NCBI GenBank assembly: GCA_001574975.1
Contig: KQ965827.1
Coordinates: 62,001 to 126,000 of the forward strand
Length of the DNA: 64,000 bases
Source: Gonapodya prolifera JEL478
Lineage: Eukaryota; Monoblepharomycota; Monoblepharidomycetes; Monoblepharidales; Gonapodyaceae
Direction: 5' to 3'
Part shown: positions 3,123-58,856 of the stretch, piece after piece
Layout of the letters: each line of letters begins with the position of its first letter
Position numbering within the stretch: the stretch's first letter is position 1
Translations under genes and position numbers: made by a program
The notes under the pieces: model-generated
Told to the model about the DNA's origin: nothing
The model's input: only the letters and a program-made list of their open reading frames with translations
The model's database searches: none

Positions 3123-3573
3123 CTGCCGTAGTATGTTGGGCAGCACGGGTATTTTTGTACATAGACATGTTGATTGAGATGTAAATATTGCGTATGAAAC
3201 GTACTTGCGTGACCGGTGACAACCTCGAGGTCGACGATTGCGGGTAGCTGCTGTACGGAACGGGCTGCCCGAGTTAGCGAGGGGAGAGATGGTAAACATT
3301 ACGCACTAAAAGGTTTACATTTCGAAAGGAATGAAATCGCGTGTAAAAGGGTTTTGCAGCTGCCTGAATGATTAGCCTCCCCTTGGTAATCACGACCAAA
3401 GCATCAGTAATCCAGACGCATTTCGAGTGCACTTGACTTGAATATAAAAGGAATGGCCACTCACACTCCGGCATCGTATTCTCACAAACCAGACGCAGTC
3501 TCTCGCTGCAACGGAATCGATTCTGCATCACATCAAATCCACTCACTCTCTGCCGTCACTCCATCTCAATCAC
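3123..3573. promoter_or_regulatory. upstream region of pirin gene
   Basis: About 450 bases without a supported gene before the pirin ATG. No specific motif could be assigned. Confidence 0.3.
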
Positions 3574-11176: not shown

Positions 11177-12358
11177 TTTTCAGATTTGAAAAGGAAACCC
11201 GAAGGGTCATCTCAGCTCGTGGTGCGACAAAAAAGGAGCTGCAACAGGGCGGCTAAACTACTGCTGCACCACAAGGCTTGGAAGAGGATGTTGGGAGAGT
11301 CTTCGAAAAGAGTGTCCCCACCCCCAATTAAATTTAATTCCGAAAAGTAGAAACCCATTAAAGGTGCAACCCATCAAGCCAGCCGCCTCCCACAACTCCC
11401 CGTCTGCCAACACCCCCCACCAGCCCTCGCGGAAGAGTGAGGAATTCGAGACCCTGCAAAGTGTACAAATGAGTTTAAGAGAACACTCAAAGGTTATAAC
11501 TCTGACCTTCATGTATAATGAACGTGGCTTGGCGCAAGCTTGTACCACCACCAGCTGATTTGTATTTATTAGGATACTCAACAAATCAGATTGCCTCCTG
11601 TTCTTCAATTCAAATCGAATGGTATTCCCTTATGTCCCATTGGTCAGAAAAAGGTGTCGTGGGAAACCTACAGTGCAACACCAAAATCTTGCGAAAGCTT
11701 TGAGGTGATCGCTGGGAGGTTTCATGTTCTGGATCTGTCCTTGTTGTACCCGGTGCCACTGGTGCAGAGAAGACGTCTTCTTGTCCCCCAGACCCTCAGG
11801 AGTTCTCAACTCGGAATTCTGCTAGTGTGTGAGGAGAAAAATTGTAATAGTTCCAAACTACATGACAACGACAATTTCGCAAAACCAAAGCAAAAAAAGG
11901 AAGAAAAAAAGAGGGGTAAAAACAAGGGGACAAAATAAAGGGACGACCTTCCCGCCATCATTACACGTTATCGTCAGGGCCACGGCACATGCACAGCTCC
12001 AGTTGCCACATCACATCTACCGTGCTCGCGGTCCGGCGCGCACGTCAGTCTCGCGAGCGTCCGTCCGTGTGTGCTGTGGTGCGGTCACGCAGACCCGTTT
12101 GGGTAAATAAAAGTCTTCTCGTCACGTGCCAGTCCCCCTCTCCATCCAATAAATTCATCCAACGAAAGACCCCCAATGCGTCATCCACCCCAAAAGTCCA
12201 TTCTAACCAAGCTAGGAAAATGTATGTACTCAAGTACAGTGCCGGCGTGGTTGCGTAGCGTACGTGCGTTGCGTGGAGTGCGGTGCGCGAGGCGGGGCGG
12301 GTCGTGGTCCACCAGTCCCGTCCCGTCAGAAATTGGACAGGGAGAGCGAGGGCTAAGG
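11177..12358. other. no confident gene
   Basis: Short frames on both strands (for example plus 11591-11938, minus 11608-11258) with no recognisable domain. An A-rich purine stretch lies at 11875-11940. The right end holds the 3' region of the deacetylase-like gene. Confidence 0.35.
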
Positions 12359-13554
12359 TCATGCGTACCCCCCTGACGCGTCGCCGAAGCATTGCGCCAC
12401 TACACACGCCCCCAAAAAGCACGGTGAGCACACGCACCATCATCACTCTCAACCACAACAAACGTACCTGTCACAAACACATAACCTCTGGACGTGACCT
12501 CCTTCAGCACGCCCTCGACGGCATCCTCGTACCCGGGGATGGTCTCGTACATCTGCACCACGTAGCTGTTCACGCTTAACGCCCCCAAATCGAGCGCCTG
12601 CGCGACCATAGACGGCGCAGAGGGGAGCCCTGGGACGAGATCTGCTGTCGTGGCCGTCGCGTTGTAGATGGGCGGGTAACGCGTAAGATCTTGCGTGTCG
12701 ATGGCGGAGGTCACAATGTGGTAGGAGCGTGAGAGGAGATATGACGTTGCCTCGGTGGTGCTCCGATTGTACGGAAACCGCCAATACGTCGGTCGCTTCC
12801 CCAAATACGTCGCCAGAAGGTCGCTCGTCACGTCTACTTCTTGCGTCAAGTTGCACGCGCCCGTGCCAAAGTCACAATGCGACCTTTTGGGTAGTGGTGG
12901 GGGTAGGAGGTTCCGTAAAAATCAACACCTACAACCCCCNAAACGGCACAACACGAAACTCACCACCCCATACTCGCGACCTGATGCCCCTCAGCCACGA
13001 TGCGTTTGACCTCGTCGCCCACGCCCACACCCGCAAGGTCGGTCCAATTTGTCTTGCCCACGACGAAGAACGTCGCTGTGGCGTTGTACGAGGAAAGGAG
13101 TTGTCGGACACGAGGCGTGTGCGGGCTGAGCGCGCCGTTGAATGTTAGGGCTGGCGGGGTGGAGAAGGAGAAAAGAATTGGTGAGAACAGTACTGTCGCC
13201 TCTAGAACCCGCGCCAACGAGATAAGGACGAGGCCCCGCGGCGCACTCTGCTCCAACCATTTCCCCGCCTTTTCAACTTCCCCATTCGTTCTCCTTTGCA
13301 GTCGCTTCATTCGCGGGTCCAGTTCCCCGACGCCCTCCGCACCCGTCGACAACTCACCAACCAGCCCCCCCGTCCCACAATCATAAATATTCGCCGCCCT
13401 AGTGCCCATACTCTGCAGCGACGGCGGTGGGGTGGCGACGGCTGGCGCCGATGTCGCCGAGGGGGAGCCCGGGACTGGGGAGGGTAAGGATGACGGAGGT
13501 ACAACCGGGGGGGAGACGGGGAGGGGTGTGGAGGTGGTTGGGAGGGAGGAGGAG
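12359..13554 (-). CDS. degenerate chitin/polysaccharide deacetylase (NodB) domain
   Basis: The last three exons are clear. One ends at 12964 with GHQVASMGW. The next, 12883-12468, begins SHCDFGTGACNL and contains GKRPTYWRFPYN. The last, 12399-12359, ends VAQCFGDASGGYA, the usual end of fungal chitin deacetylases. Introns are 80 and 68 bases. Catalytic motifs are altered. TFDDGP has become TFNGAL, losing both acidic residues. HTWSH has become MGWSH, keeping only the second metal His, and RPPYG has become RFPYN. The enzyme is therefore probably inactive and may only bind polysaccharide. Upstream is an S/T/P-rich stalk. An AG at 13555 followed by SSSLPTTSTPLP stays in frame with the membrane protein to the right. 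An independent start at 13664 (MRMFSSMFLC) is the alternative. A single unread base (n) at 12940 lies inside the 80-base intron. Confidence 0.65.
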
Positions 13555-13856
13555 CTGCGTGCGGAGGGGAGCAGGAGAAGGAGTAGGGGCAGGAGTGTGG
13601 TGGTGAGACAAGCGAATGCAATAACGGAAGTGACGCAGAGAAACATGGACGAGAACATGCGCATCCCGTGGTGATTTTCCCCCCTTTCCCCCACTCCCGA
13701 CAGTCCACTTCGTCCTTGTCCCAACAGACAGCCTCCACCGAACCACTGCAATACCAAATCAACCCATTACACACACGATTCAAACCACCGCAAACCCCCG
13801 TCCTTCCCCGCACCCCACCACCCCCCGGCCCCAGAACACACATCTACAAGCACTCA

Positions 13857-15671
13857 CCCACGTCCAAACGCCACTCCCAAACCGACCACAATCCCCAACA
13901 GCGCCAGAAGCGCCACGACGGTAGCTGCCCGCGCCGTACGGGACGCGCGCCACCTATCGACCCAACGGGGTGACACACCCATCCCACCACTGCCGCCGCA
14001 GGGAAAGCACGGGAAGCACTGTGGGACAGGAGAGGGCAGGATCGTACCTCCCGCCCAGGGGTTATCCTTTGCGAGACCCGAAGGTCTCCTCCTGGGCGCG
14101 TGGGTGGGAGGCCGTGGGTGGGCGTCGGGTGTGGGTGATGGCGTGACGGAGGTGCGGCCGGGTTTGGCGGGTAGGCGCTTGTTGGGGTCAATAAAGGGGA
14201 TCCAGAGCGGGGTGAGCGGGGTCAGTGGTGTGGATGGCGGTGGGGGGGATGGCGAGGGAGATGGGGAAGATGGGTGGTCGTTGTCGGCCTCAGCCTCTTC
14301 CGAGTGGGAGTGTTCGTGCGGGGGAAACGAGGAGTCAAGGGGATTGTGGTGCGTGAAGTCGGCGAGCAGGGTTGCAGACGACGTCGTGGTGGTGGAGGGC
14401 GACGGCGGCGATATGGCGCGCGCGGCGGCCGAGAGGGCGGGGGATTGGGAACCGAAGGGGGAGAAGGAGAGGTCGAGTGTCGGTGCTGTGGCGGAAATGG
14501 GTGCCAGGGGCGCGAGGGAGGGTGGGTTCGGGGAGGGTGAGGTGGTGGTTCCTCGGGGTGTGGGAGAGGGTGAGGTGGAGAGCGGTGGGAGTGGGTCCGA
14601 GGGTGGAGAGAGGGATCGCAAGCGGGCGTCCGAAGGAGACGGTGAGTAGGATGAAGCGAGGGAAAAGGAGGCGGCCTTTGTCGTAGGCAGTGGGAAAAAG
14701 GACCGCGACTCGGTAGGTGACGTGGGCGAGGTCGGAGGCGGAGATGTCGAACTCGTGGGCTCGGCAGATCTAGCCCGTCCCAGCTGCCCCGTCTTTGGCC
14801 CTGCGGTGGAGATTGCGCCGGCCGAGTGCGGGCGCGCGACGATCTCGTGCGCCATCCAGGGCCGCGGCACGACGGGGGAGAGTGGGAGAGCGTGCAGGAC
14901 TGCGGATCGTGACGGTGTGGATGGGGATGTGGGGGATGCAGGTGCAGGAGCAGGGGCAGACGTGGATGCGGGAGAGCGTGGCGGGACTGAGGGTTTCTGC
15001 GCCGTGAGGGAGAGCGAGCGTGTGGGGGGGTTTGCGAGGTGCAGGTCGAGGGAGGGTGTGGGTGATGGTGATGGAGGGGCGAGCAGTGTTGCCGACCCCG
15101 ACGTCGCCGCCGCCGCGGAGTGCGGTCTGTCGCTGCTCGCTGCTGCGGTGTCAGCCCTGCGCCCGCCCCAGCTGCTGCGCCGTGCAACGTCTGGTGATCC
15201 CGTGGTCGTCGCTGGTTCTGCCCTGTCGGGCGACTCTACGCTCTTTCGCTGCGTCTGCGCACTCGCACCGTCTCCGCCAATCTTGCGCCGCATCACACGC
15301 ACCACGCCCGCCTTGTCGCCCGCCGCTGCCACGCCTGCCACGCCCGCGGCCCCTGCGTCCCCCGCGCTGCCCCTGCCTGCACTCGCGCCATCCGTGCCTG
15401 CCATCTGCTGCCCTGTGCTCCCTTTCTCTCTTCTCTCTTCCGCCCTCGCCCTCGCTCTCTGCTCTCTCTCTCTTCTCCTCTCACTCGCACTCTCCGTCGT
15501 CTCCCCTTCGAACGCCCTCGTGTCGCCGCTTCCTGCGTGTCCTCGCTTCCCTCCCACGCAGCTCTCTTTTTTCTTCCCGTCCTCGTCCGCACTCCGCACG
15601 CCTGCAATCGCCTTCGCACGCCGCGTGTTCTCTTGCTGCTGCTGCTGCTTTCCGTGCGCGATCCACACCAA
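13857..15671 (-). CDS. long disordered N-terminus with transmembrane anchor
   Basis: A continuous frame of about 600 codons starts at ATG 15671, or at the better-looking MAGTDGASAGR at 15404. It is rich in Ser, Pro, Ala and Thr, with no fold until a hydrophobic segment at the end (ATVVALLALLGIVVGLGVAF) preceded by Arg residues (WRASRTAR). This is a type II anchor with a long cytoplasmic tail. The frame ends at a clean donor (gg|gtgagtgct, intron from 13857). Splicing to 13554 (303-base intron) would join it in phase to the stalk and NodB domain on the left. I therefore think this and the previous entry are one gene. The intron's pyrimidine tract reads as a false hydrophobic peptide. Confidence 0.5.
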
Positions 15672-16629
15672 TATCCCCGTGGCGTTTTGGACCCTGTCGC
15701 GTGTTTGTTTACCCGCACCGCTCGCTCTCTGCTTTTACTACTCTTTGTGGTCTATTCCACACACATCTCTTTCTTCTGCCTACTCTCACTCTATTCCGGC
15801 TGATCCACCCTTCCATGGAGTGACGCACGTCACTACATTATGCACTCACGCCATCCAAATATTCAAAACCCTGTCCTCTCCGCTTCATCCCCCAATTCCA
15901 CATTCCAAATCACCACCGTCCTATTCAAACAATGCACGAAGCCATCTTGCTCTTCATTCTTTACACCTTCATGCAAAGTTCACCACCCCCACTCCGCACC
16001 TGCACTCATCCTTTGCAAATTGCACTCCACACAAACAAACATGCCCACAATTTTTTTCTTTGTACCTGCACAAAAGCACAGCAGCCGACATCTGTCGGAA
16101 CCGGGACTCTCCAAATGCGGAGCCGGAAGGCAAAGCTTGATGAGGGTCCTGCCGTCATCCTTCACGCCGTGACAAAAATCACGGACTGCACAGCCTTCTC
16201 CTGGGCTTCTCGTCCCACACCTCCGATCCGTAAAAACAACAATAACGACGAGCTGAATCCCATTCCCACCCCCAGCGTGTGTGCGGCGTGGCGTCGCCGT
16301 CGCTTTGGTGCGCGGTGCGGTTCATTGGTGCCGGTGTGCCGCGCGGACCGAGGTTTGGAGGCCACACAGTAGTGCGCTCCTTGGTCACGAACCCAGCTAC
16401 CGTGCGGCGCATGCCCCGCGTACACTGCTGTACAATCTCGCAATCCCCATTCATCCTATCAATCCCCGCGGTACGATCTTGGGTTGCCGTTGTCATGGTA
16501 CGCTCTTGTGGACTGGTACGCTTTTCTTGGGGTAATATTAAAACACCTCGCAAATCTGTCACTTCACACCGTTTCTCGGCACCCGATAAACCAGTACTCT
16601 ATGGCACAACTTTTGCAGTGCGCTCCGCG
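15672..16629. other. intergenic, upstream of membrane protein gene
   Basis: Pyrimidine-rich sequence on the plus strand around 15720-15900, then unremarkable sequence. No supported gene; long open frames here are shadows. Confidence 0.35.
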
Positions 16630-54217: not shown

Positions 54218-55079
54218 ATGGCAACGGACCCGGAGAAGAAGAAGCGGAAGAAGGAATCTGATACCGTAACGGACACAGAGGAAGCCCAGACTGAAGGTGC
54301 GACGAAGGTGTAAAAACTTGCTGTGTGGTTTGCACCGATGATTCTCCCTTTTGCAGCGACCGCAACCAAGAAAAAGGATAAATCGAAGAAGGAAAAGAAG
54401 TCTAAAGGGAAAGATCGAGCGGAAGATACTGAAGCAGAAGGAGACGCGATGGACGTTGACGATGGAGAGGGCAAGAAAGACAAGGACGAGGACGACGGCC
54501 GTCCGCCATACGAGACTCGCGTTCGTGCTGTCAGTGCCATCGCCTCTCCTCTGGCATCGAAGAAGCTCACAAAGAAGCTCTACAAGACGATTAAGAAGGG
54601 TGCGTTGCGGTGTGATACTTGCTCTATTCCGATTTTTCTGAGGGAATTTTGCTCAGCTGCGAAGGCTAAGTGCATCAAGCGAGGTGTCAAAGAGGTTGTG
54701 AAAGGTGTACGTAAGGGGAACAAAGGGTGAGTCATTTGTCTTGACCTGCCCAACGGTGCTTCTCAAATCAAATATTCACGATATTATTCTGGTGCTGCTC
54801 TGGCTCTGCGGTGGTTTTTCGTGGGATACCTCATCCAGCATCGTGTTTATAGCGGGTGACATTTCCCCAATCGATGTGATCACACATCTGCCCATCCTAT
54901 GTGAGGAAGCCAGTGTTCCTTACTGCTATGTACCGTCAAAGGTGGACCTGGGCGAAGCAGGGGCCACGAAACGTCCCACCTCTTGCATTATGATGGTGAG
55001 GAAAGCGGACGCGGACTTCACAGAGGCGTATGACGAGATTCACAAGGAGGTTGGCGGACTGGAAGCGAAAGCGAAATAG
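54218..55079 (+). CDS. NHP2: H/ACA snoRNP protein NHP2
   Basis: Four exons (54218-54296, 54357-54599, 54657-54726, 54839-55079) give 210 residues. The N-terminus is extended, Lys/Glu-rich and acidic (TKKKDKSKKEKKSKGKD, DAMDVDDGEGKKDKDEDDG). The L7Ae-type RNA-binding domain is intact: KCIKRGVKEVVKGVRKGNKG, IVFIAGDISPIDVITHLPIL, CEEASVPYCYVPSKVDLGEA. NHP2 works with Cbf5, Nop10 and Gar1 in the nucleolus to direct rRNA pseudouridylation. The N-terminal tail is longer than in yeast. Confidence 0.93.
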
Positions 55080-55221: not shown

Positions 55222-58200
55222 CTACTTATTTTGAGTAGCTGGTGTAAAGACATCCGGTGAAACACTGGTAAGAAGGACAGTTGTCACGGTGCGCAAGAAG
55301 CACAACGATGCCGAGCCATCCTTGTTCACACGCAACGGTCCGGCAGCGTTCTAGCTGTGTGTACAGCGATCGCACTTCCAGTGACGAATGTCTCCTGCGT
55401 GCAGGGGTTCCTTGTTGAGACGTCCCAGACAACCGGGACAAGTCTGTCGAAACAGATCCCGAGTGCATAAAACGACAAGACCACTGAATTCAAAAAATCT
55501 CACCTAGGATGACATGTGCTCGTTCACGGTTATAATGAACAAGAACCTTCCGAGGTAGTCCCTGAGCGCTTTTGGAGAAGTTACAGATCTTTTCCAGGTG
55601 GTTGTCTTGATCCCGCCCCTCCGGGTTCGTCGACCTTGACGTTTCGCGGTGAACGTAGGATTGCCGACAACGACAATTGGTACTAGAATTATGGGTTCCG
55701 CTTTGAACCACCTGATCGCTCCATCGTGCAAAGCAGCCAGATCCGACGACAAGGGTTGCCAGTCGCTCGGTCGCTTCTTCCGTTCCAAAGCCAACAACTG
55801 GTCTACGCGCCGCTGAACCAAAGCCGCCTTGTTGGCGGCGACGATGGCGTTCTTGACCTTGGAGTAGAAACGCTGCGTCGTACGTCTTGCTTGGAAACGC
55901 TCCTTTCTTGCGTCATGGCTGGTGTTTGACTGGTAGATGCTCTCTCCATGTATCTGACATGCTTTCAAATAACGGAGATTGTTGATGGCTTCGAGAGAGC
56001 GACTGCTGTCCTTGCTCAAAGCGACCTGATGATCCAAGACAGCCTCCGAAGCGAACCTTGCATTCGCTGCTTTGGTTCGGACTGTCTGTAGCGTCTCCTG
56101 ATCCTTAGAACATGACGTGATATAAAACGAGAACGTCAAAGGCCGGTATGTCTCGCCATCTCGCTCCAACGTGCTGACGCTAACATGCGCGATGTCTTTC
56201 AGACCTGCGCCAATGTACGACGTTCGTGCTCAGGGTCAGATTGACACAACGCAACCAACTCCCCACCCACTCACCGAGATCGATTGTTATATTGGTGTGA
56301 GTTGAGGCAAGATCCAAGGCTTCCTCTCCAGTGTGAATAACTTCGGCAATCTTTGCAAGCGATGCAGTGCCTCGGAACGTCGCCTTCCCCTGTCCAAACG
56401 TGGTGTACCCCGAAGTGCCCGGTCTTAGAAATAGCTTTCCATTCGAGGGGAGGATCAAGCCGGGAGGACGCGGAAGGTTCGTGGTCAGTTCAGTATGATT
56501 CGGTGGCGTGGACACGGAGTGGTTTCTATTCAAGTGACCCAGAGCCTCATCGTGAAGATTGATATCGGAAGATCGCGTCTAGAAAAGTGATCAGTCAGTC
56601 AAACCTTACCAATGCCGCAGTATACGCTAGTAACGCTCTCACCTTCAACAGGTCCTTGTACGACCTCTCGGAGAAACCTATGTCGCAGTTGTAACGTGTG
56701 ACAGCGACCGAGTTCGGTTTTCGCGCAGTCTGCTTGCTGAGGTTATGGCAAAGCAGATGAACCTCGACTCCGTCGGTTCGGAGCGACTGGGAAAGAAGCA
56801 GAGGTTGTCTTCGGTCGTGGCGCTTTGCAGCAAAGCTGTATGCACCATCCAGAAACATTCTCCAGAAAGCGGTGGGATGTCGCTGAAAGGCCGTCGCGAC
56901 CGTGGTTTTGGCCGGGGTGCCCGCTTTAGTGACGAAGAGATGACCAGCCGGGGGAAATTTAAACGCAAAGCGTGTGGGCCAGATCCTCCCGTCATCCACG
57001 CTGACCAGATGCGCCCTAGGTCGATGCGCCCAGAACCGGTCGACGAGGACATTATGTCGGGTGACGGCATCCGCTGCTCGAAGTGCCGGAGTACGAAGAG
57101 AGGATGGCGTAGCGTCTCCATTCGCATCAGAAGCGGAACCATCTGCATCGCTCTTCGCGGAATCCTCGCCGACAATTGGATCGCAGACATCTGGCCATTG
57201 TGCAGATATCGACTCTATGCGCGAAGCCATCCACTCCTCTATAGCCTCTCTCTCATCCGGCTTTGCGTCGGTCAGCATCCGTGCAAACGCTTGCGACAGT
57301 ATAGTCGCCCGAAGGAAAACAAATCGTCCGTTAAAGTTTGCCCTTGGGAAGAGATCTTGAACCGTTTTCCCGGCCTCCCGACTGCATTCAAACGCAAACT
57401 GCAGAAAATGTCCTGTTCTATCCGGGTCTCCGACCAGCTCGCATAGGGTCCGCGCATGCTTGGTTGTCGTTTCCTTCCGGGGTTGTTCCGAATCGTCCCT
57501 TTTACCCAGAGATGGCGGCTGTTCCGAATCGTTTCCATCAACGTACGCCGCGCGAAGCAACGGGTGCATGTACCTGGCGCGGACGTGTGCTCTCAACTCG
57601 TCCGCAGATGCACCGTGACAGTTTGCGAGAACGCGAAGACGCTCCACCAATCGAGACTCCTTGGCATTCAGCGATTTGAGTCTGCCGAAAGTTACGTCAA
57701 TCCAGGATGTGAACCCGTCTGCTGGATCCTTCTTCATGTCGTTTAAGATCTTCTCAATTGATGTAGCGGCGGCGCCGTTACGCTCCGCCTCCTGCGCCGC
57801 ATCATCGATGGCGGCCAGCACGGCGTCCTGGACCTCGGCGTCTTCTTCGATCCTGCCGTCACCTTCGTCTTGCACGGCCGCTTTGGCGAGCGCGCTTTCC
57901 AGTTGCTTGGTTGTGAAACACCGTCCAATGGCAATTGAGCTCAACTTCCTCTTAATGGAGGAGAGAAGCTTGGGACGCACGAGGCTCTTGTCTTCAACCA
58001 GATTGTCCACCCGAAGCTCTTTCTGTAGAGCAAAATGGTGAGCGAACAGTGTATGTCAGATGGAACGACGTCTACGCACCCAGTGCAGTGTCGGTAAGTT
58101 GCGCACCAAAAAGCTCTTCACGCTCCCAATCGCTCCATGGGCCCATTGCATGACGGCATTAGCCGAGAACTCGTATGGCAAACTTGCCAAGGCAACGTCT

Positions 58201-58856
58201 CCCGCCTCCGGACGAGGATGCTTCTTCCTCTGGCTCTGTTTCTGGCTGACGTCGCGGGATTTGTCGGTATGGGTCGATATCGCCCTGCCCTCGCACCTCG
58301 GCCTGTCGATTGGCGTCATCGCTTGTGTGCGAGTTCGGAAAGCATCCAACGTCAATTCCGTCTCGGTGCCGCCCGCACCGGAGATGTAGGGATCATCCAA
58401 CAAGGAGCTGTTTTGAAGAGTCGCCAAAGCCGCCGCCGTCTCGATGAGGATATGCACACGGTGTCCTTGTAAAGAGGCGACGCATAATCCTGGCGCTAAC
58501 CAGTGTTCCCATCTCTGCCCACCGTCTCCGTAAGCCCACAACGCGTGCGCAAGCGAATCTCTTCCGTCGGTTCCGATGTAGACCACGCAGACCGCTCCGC
58601 AGAGTTCTGCGAGGCGGTTGTGAGCGACAGCCCACGTTCTCGCACCAATAACAACGGCGAGATCCGACGGCACTGGGTCCTGTCCGTTCATCCGCGCACA
58701 ACGCACGACACGAACGACGGAAGATATACCGTCGGCAACGGTCTTGGATACAACGTTTTCTTCATCCTGAACGTGAAGAGCAACGGTGCGTGAATCGCGA
58801 GGTTGACCAGAATGCGTTTTCGAACATTTTTCATCCAACATTATTTTCATTTCCAT
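55222..58856 (-). pseudogene. Fanzor-type (eukaryotic TnpB-like) nuclease, interrupted by in-frame stops
   Basis: Exon 1 (58856 to about 58078, MEMKIMLDEKC) splices to KELRVDNLVEDKSLVRP (from about 58022), then to TRSSDINLHDEALGHLN (from 56580) and on. RuvC-I lies across an intron as NITIDLGLKDIAHVSV near 56200-56290. RFYSKVKNAIVAANKAALVQ and PIVVVGNPTFTAKRQGRR match the usual region before RuvC-II. The rearranged Glu is in ITVNEHMSS (codon 55519-55521). The next codon but three, 55504-55506, is TAG directly before a good donor (gtgaga). The next exon (from 55443) encodes a zinc ribbon, TCPGCLGRLNKE then WKCDRCTHS, and a second TAG at 55351-55353. A RuvC-III-like RVNKDGSASLCFL follows in the same frame, which ends at 55222. 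The N-terminal 500 or more residues are extra compared with TnpB and unrecognised. Probably recently inactivated. Confidence 0.7.

Follow-up and report, generated by a model that had tools for sequence, protein, structure and literature searches.

A Fanzor-like frame on the minus strand of the window

The window analysed here, 64,000 nucleotides of contig KQ965827.1 from Gonapodya prolifera JEL478, carries on its minus strand a spliced, Fanzor-like frame of five exons and 1,127 codons whose motifs lie in order; to this extent the first-pass annotation was confirmed (Table 1). The four introns measure 57, 64, 70 and 60 nt, and all four run from GT to AG. The frame is interrupted by two in-frame TAG codons, at codons 1054 and 1085, both of which had been pointed out before. 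The first proved to lie exactly at the last exon junction, with the donor of the last intron, GTGAGA, immediately 3' of it. The 1,053 codons upstream of this TAG form a single open run, which has a chance of about 1e-19 on base composition alone. The same introns and motifs were found in a sister copy on contig C28 at 96% DNA identity, indicating that the gene model is no chance construct.

Table 1. Features at the Fanzor-like locus (window coordinates)
Feature	Position	Strand	Remark
Dispersed-repeat fragment	58931-58810	-	Ends at 58810; source of ATG 58856
Exon 1 of the first-described frame	58856-58080	-	About 16 first codons (58856-58810) repeat-derived, remainder Fanzor block
Exon 2	58022-56643	-	TDG (residues 675-677) close to exon end
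Identical tract, 370 nt, window and C28	57180-56811	-	In exon 2; copies about 4% apart elsewhere
Exon 3	56578-56275	-	Ends within RuvC-I IDLG, which is split by intron 3
Exon 4	56204-55504	-	RuvC core, GNPTF, alternative Glu (VNEHMSS), TAG at end
Premature TAG, codon 1054	55506-55504	-	Last codon of exon 4; sense codon in C28 copy
Exon 5	55443-55222	-	Four-Cys ribbon (CPGC...CDRC), KD RuvC-III motif, terminal TAG 55224-55222
Second premature TAG, codon 1085	55353-55351	-	Sense codon in C28 copy
Fanzor-like block common to window and C28	55122-58810	-	96.0% DNA identity; both ends sharp
Convergent neighbour, L7Ae-family gene frame	54702-55079	+	TAG at end; about 43 nt from block

The block that the window shares with C28 ends sharply in both copies, within different surroundings. 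Neither TIR nor TSD was seen at the block ends of the two copies, and a DNA search of the genome gave no further copy of these ends. A fold at the 3' end, considered as a guide-RNA candidate, was no better than shuffled sequences (z -1.19; 23 of 200 shuffles equalled or bettered it). The L7Ae-family frame that converges on the block in the window is presumably NHP2-like. On C28, the block adjoins other DNA on its 5' side, and a NIF3 gene converges to about 18 nt from the opposite end. A gene fragment of the same orientation lies upstream of the C28 block (L013:6181-8644); its start is XPG-like, we assume, and the block seems to have removed its end. The three pieces of this fragment that were scanned matched no Pfam family.

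A fungal, flagellated host was supported by matches to fungal chitin synthase PF01644 (9 matches) and the ciliary protein IFT46 PF12317 (3 matches) in the genome, neither of which occurred in 14 control genomes; the two together are what is expected for a flagellated fungus. Elsewhere in the window, positions 12001-16000 are GC-rich, with a strong AT skew that reverses from 0.133 to -0.191 and long overlapping open frames on both strands; this region is probably low-complexity sequence.

The 5' end of the frame derives from a dispersed repeat

The start described at first, the ATG at 58856, had to be corrected, since the ATG and about 16 first codons lie outside the Fanzor block and belong to an unrelated dispersed repeat. 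Homology to C28 stops at 58810, and further copies of the repeat lie on C150, C27, C21 and C73, and also on C8, C69, C67, C1 and C157. The copy on C150 reads MEKKILDEKCSKTHS where the first codons from the ATG of the window read MEMKIMLDEKCSKTHS, and it extends beyond the point where the window's piece ends. At its 5' end the Fanzor block of the window has no start codon of its own; the first in-frame Met within the block is residue 56 (58691).

An N-terminal extension of more than 500 residues had been attributed to the frame. Of these, the first 16 or so must be given up to the repeat, and the rest stand without a convincing match: residues 17 to about 660 gave none among eight other Fanzor loci tested, the best E outside the RuvC part being 0.019. 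A resemblance of residues 360-520 to frames of the C9 relatives, noticed by eye, was dropped; with 200 shuffles, the window stood at 2/201 for one piece and did not come up as a match for the other.

Relation to the Fanzor families

We compared the spliced frame, which reads TDG at 675, D819 (IDLG), GNPTF at 1001, E1049, CPGC at 1056, CDRC at 1078 and K1095-D1096 (VNKDG), with published motif descriptions. TnpB and Fanzor proteins are described by the motif D-X(125,275)-[TS][TS]-X-X-[C4 zinc finger], with RD 5-50 residues beyond the C4 finger (Bao and Jurka 2013, PMC3627910). In the window, D819 is followed after 232 residues by S1052 and S1053, and then by C1056..C1059 and C1078..C1081, the first X being the TAG codon. 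The RD is absent: none of the five readable copies has it, and the window, C28, C16 and one C9 copy have KD and another C9 copy KN, so that the Asp is kept in 4/5 (a third C9 copy was unreadable at this site). The RuvC-I motif of Fanzors is given as a near-exclusive DPG (PMC10711439), and DLG was found instead in the window, C28 and C16. The same source places the alternative Glu of Fanzors six residues ahead of the zinc finger and the TDG motif of Fanzor1 in the WED domain. The rearranged Glu that had been claimed was borne out, as six residues separate E1049 from C1056. TDG was present in the window and in one C9 relative, where we read it as a sequence motif, apart from any WED-domain assignment.

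A profile search with PF07282, the TnpB-type ribbon (gathering cut-off 26.3 bits), went both ways. The 93-residue tail of the window frame scored 27.5 bits by itself, above the cut-off though with a weak match to the C4 ribbon, but the whole frame, with X at the stops, scored 23.2 bits. The corresponding tail of the C16 relative scored 29.4 bits. A genome-wide search with this profile did not have the window locus among the 20 matches listed, and with NCBIfam the TnpB score was 12.2 bits against a cut-off of 100.

Could this be another spliced gene in which such motifs fell together by chance? Several searches would fit that reading besides the low whole-frame score. A two-sequence Fanzor1 profile from the same genome gave no hhalign match to the window, and phmmer of the window against four Fanzor1-like frames of the genome reached 5.6 bits at best (E 0.0014, four-sequence database). 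Sequence searches of solved structures with the window protein returned nothing in one run and only a keratin in another (E 0.42). But a clear Fanzor1-like protein of the same genome also had no hit among solved structures, so the structure negative is uninformative, and the best phmmer piece paired a helical stretch of the RuvC region with its counterpart. Furthermore, the motif order is complete with correct spacings, the same motifs recur in the C16 and C9 relatives, and the tail passes the cut-off. Chance assembly in an unrelated gene is, on this evidence, very unlikely, and the Fanzor-like identity first proposed is supported. Because of DLG for DPG, KD for RD and the PF07282 scores, we describe the protein as a divergent Fanzor1-like variant and do not claim strict membership. 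An AlphaFold model of exon 4 alone (232 aa) had a mean pLDDT of 37.3 and was set aside, and no relative emerged when viral contigs were scanned with exon 4 (three pattern stretches, none confirmed).

Copies and relatives in the genome

The genome (47.6 Mb, 207 contigs) was searched for intact copies. A protein search with the window frame (15 matches listed) returned the C28 sister together with distant relatives on C16 and C9, and a second search with the C16 sequence (9 matches listed) added two more places on C9. Compared with window positions 58810-55122, the C28 sister shows 146 substitutions in 3,685 aligned bases, with introns identical in placement. The identity at the DNA level and the common introns show that the sister arose by DNA duplication. 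It has sense codons at both TAG sites of the window and lesions of its own: a TGA, a TAA, three deletions of 1 nt in coding sequence and, in exon 4, an insert of 74 nt. The ends of this insert (L013 ~3244-3317), like ATACCT...AGGTAT, resemble those of a tiny inverted-repeat element.

All four distant relatives, one on C16 and three on C9, contain in-frame stops or broken frames within the matched stretches. The three on C9 lie at about 167, 184 and 301 kb of this one contig (L030, L031, L032). Thus, the search for intact copies suggested earlier yielded a sister and four distant relatives that were all broken, and no intact copy of this Fanzor branch was found among the best candidates, the only ones scored, so that a missed copy is possible.

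Other kinds of Fanzor are present in the genome. IS607-type elements on C37 and C165 combine a serine recombinase with a Fanzor2-like frame. In these elements (L016:2233-4509 and L017:1026-2930) the long open Fanzor2-like frame spans nearly the whole serine-recombinase frame, in a different reading frame. The overlapping stretch is similar in C37 and C165, with differences of 71/56/94 by recombinase codon position, and overlapping coding of the two frames is possible. On C114, a Fanzor1-like frame with RuvC-I DPN, a ribbon and WNRD lies near a DDE_3 transposase frame (L022:3366-4382 with L022:943-2382), and a shorter frame on C50 (L019:3576-4160) falls just under the DDE_3 cut-off, with 26.8 against 28.6 bits. 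Fanzor1 may be carried by Tc1/mariner-like elements in this genome.

The two premature TAG codons

We considered whether the locus might still encode an active nuclease, through readthrough of the stops or through UAG read as an amino acid. It is true that both premature stops are TAG and that one aligns with Gln in the C28 sister. But the second aligns with Ser, so one amino-acid meaning cannot serve both, and readthrough would require two successive events, 31 codons apart. TAG is also the terminator of both family copies and of 3 of 9 other genes checked (the rest being 4 TAA and 2 TGA; a small sample). One of the TAG-ended genes is an open Fanzor1-like frame, whose relative ends about 2 residues later with TGA. 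Within this small sample, nine other genes and both family copies, there was no sign of TAG read as an amino acid. The ends of histone H4 (4/4 TAA) and actin (3/4 TAA, 1/4 TGA) were uninformative on TAG, and for a ubiquitin-end pattern the reversed control gave more matches (9 and 12) than the pattern itself (4). The C28 sister, moreover, carries TGA, TAA and frameshifts. Given the spacing of the two TAGs and the genes checked that end in TAG, readthrough, one of the options raised at first, is not supported, and we give it almost no credence.

Errors of sequencing or assembly within an intact gene would account for the small number of lesions, just two in 1,127 codons. However, both are substitutions and not indels, the C28 sister is independently broken and the 5' end is foreign, all of which make such errors extremely unlikely.

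Decay or constraint

We then compared the two copies by codon (1,107 comparable codons) and against a neutral simulation. Substitutions fell 45/36/44 on the three codon positions, and dN/dS was 0.66, which is below 1 but not clearly so. Four stops were seen between the copies where neutrality predicts 3.9 (5-95%: 1-7), and synonymous changes numbered 39, with 35 expected (27-43). Among 42 residue differences from residue 744 on, the relatives favoured the window in 7 and C28 in 5, and 30 were uninformative, suggesting that neither copy is clearly the one that was kept.

Changes were fewer upstream of the first TAG, where 111 of 3,111 coding sites differ; the tail and the noncoding sites, taken together, differ at 35 of 574 (Fisher p = 0.007). 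When the 370 nt that are identical in both copies were excluded, p was 0.034. This tract itself has p ~5e-5 in 20,000 random placements; a recent gene conversion could account for it, and so could local constraint. Synonymous changes upstream of the TAG numbered 36, against 31.4 expected (P = 0.19). The upstream shortage would be a mild hint of past or present constraint, and we weigh it as weak because the synonymous share is not clearly raised and because function before inactivation would leave the same trace. Also speaking against decay, the window frame has no stop or frameshift before its TAG, and the probability of no stop is 0.16 if half of the substitutions fell on the window branch. 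With that open frame as the reference, the three 1-nt indels in coding sequence and the insert all count as changes of C28. Among the transitions between the copies, 40 of 89 lie at a CpG of one copy, although only 17% of sites are in CpG, a bias that could point to methylation-linked decay.

These data bear on a further reading, that the locus is a kept, truncated and cutting-dead Fanzor that binds guide RNA and DNA and serves as a regulator of, or a brake on, intact Fanzors, like the bacterial TldR. The frame is open as far as the stop, substitutions are fewer there, and other parts of the genome contain long open frames that are Fanzor-like. A stop at the last exon junction, under the exon-junction rule, should avoid nonsense-mediated decay. 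Against this, the number of synonymous changes before the TAG agrees with neutrality, the codon positions are nearly evenly hit, and the residues judged by relatives are split. The start of the window copy is repeat-derived, the other copies found are broken, and similarity to the other Fanzor1-like proteins of the genome is very remote. Since the two copies appear to have diverged almost neutrally, a kept truncated regulator, a possibility raised at first, finds no solid support, and we regard it as unlikely, with odds of a few in a hundred. The fuller version, a eukaryotic counterpart of TldR that was truncated at its last exon junction, is exempt from mRNA decay, was recently given promoter and start codon by the repeat and is kept as a non-cutting regulator binding guide RNA, appears less likely still.

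Discussion

We conclude, with a probability of about 0.86, that a divergent Fanzor1-like gene, which a mobile element probably carried, has been inactivated here and survives as a relic. The inactivation proposed earlier is supported by the premature TAGs, the broken sister and relatives, and the near-neutral divergence; because the related copies in the genome are broken too, this looks like the ordinary decay of a mobile element. In Fanzor systems the element supplies a guide RNA that leads the protein to matching DNA, which the RuvC site cuts. The ancestor most likely acted in this way, with an element-derived guide RNA and a D-E-D RuvC site that would have cut the guided DNA. In the window copy two nonsense changes, one exactly at the last exon junction and the other 31 codons farther on, cut off the zinc ribbon and the last catalytic Asp, and any product, of 1,053 residues or fewer, would be expected not to cut. 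Given the place of the first stop, the mRNA would be expected to escape nonsense-mediated decay. The frame now starts in the fragment of an unrelated repeat. Directly seen are the exon structure with its stops, the sense codons of the sister, a divergence close to neutral, the broken state of the relatives and the 5' end taken from a repeat; we infer that the locus was once mobile, was served by a guide RNA, has lost its activity and is presently silent.

Fanzor1 proteins, such as SpuFz1 of Spizellomyces punctatus, resemble the window copy in the TDG, the alternative Glu before C4, the D...[TS][TS]xxC4 spacing and the fungal host (PMC10432273, PMC3627910, PMC10711439). The window copy differs in having DLG and not DPG, KD and not RD, and about 1,110 residues and not 638. 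In addition, no terminal inverted repeats were seen at the ends of the window block, its gene is broken, and its similarity to the genome's own Fanzor1-like proteins is very weak. With the Fanzor2/IS607-type elements on C37 and C165 it shares the TnpB-type order of C-terminal motifs; those elements, however, are accompanied by a serine recombinase frame, and none was seen in the window block.

TldR proteins are cutting-dead. They are described as RNA-guided transcription factors related to TnpB from phages and bacteria (PMC13418256). The window copy is like them a TnpB-type protein minus its nuclease site, but TldRs are functional regulators, and the window copy shows no solid sign of selection or function. 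A literature search gave nothing on inactivated or domesticated Fanzors, judging by titles or the beginnings of abstracts. A truncated form that was kept and expressed would, to our knowledge, be the first non-cutting eukaryotic relative of TnpB in service, although the search was not designed as proof of this.

The relic by itself is of little weight, since partial Fanzor copies beside full-length ones have already been reported in a chytrid, Spizellomyces punctatus, whose 42 reported Fanzor loci carry either full-length (19) or partial genes (PMC10432273). It does warn that motif order alone is no proof of function. The locus documents a divergent Fanzor1-like branch, with DLG, KD and about 1,100 residues, of which only broken copies were found in this genome, and which coexists there with long open Fanzor1-like frames and IS607-type Fanzor2 frames.
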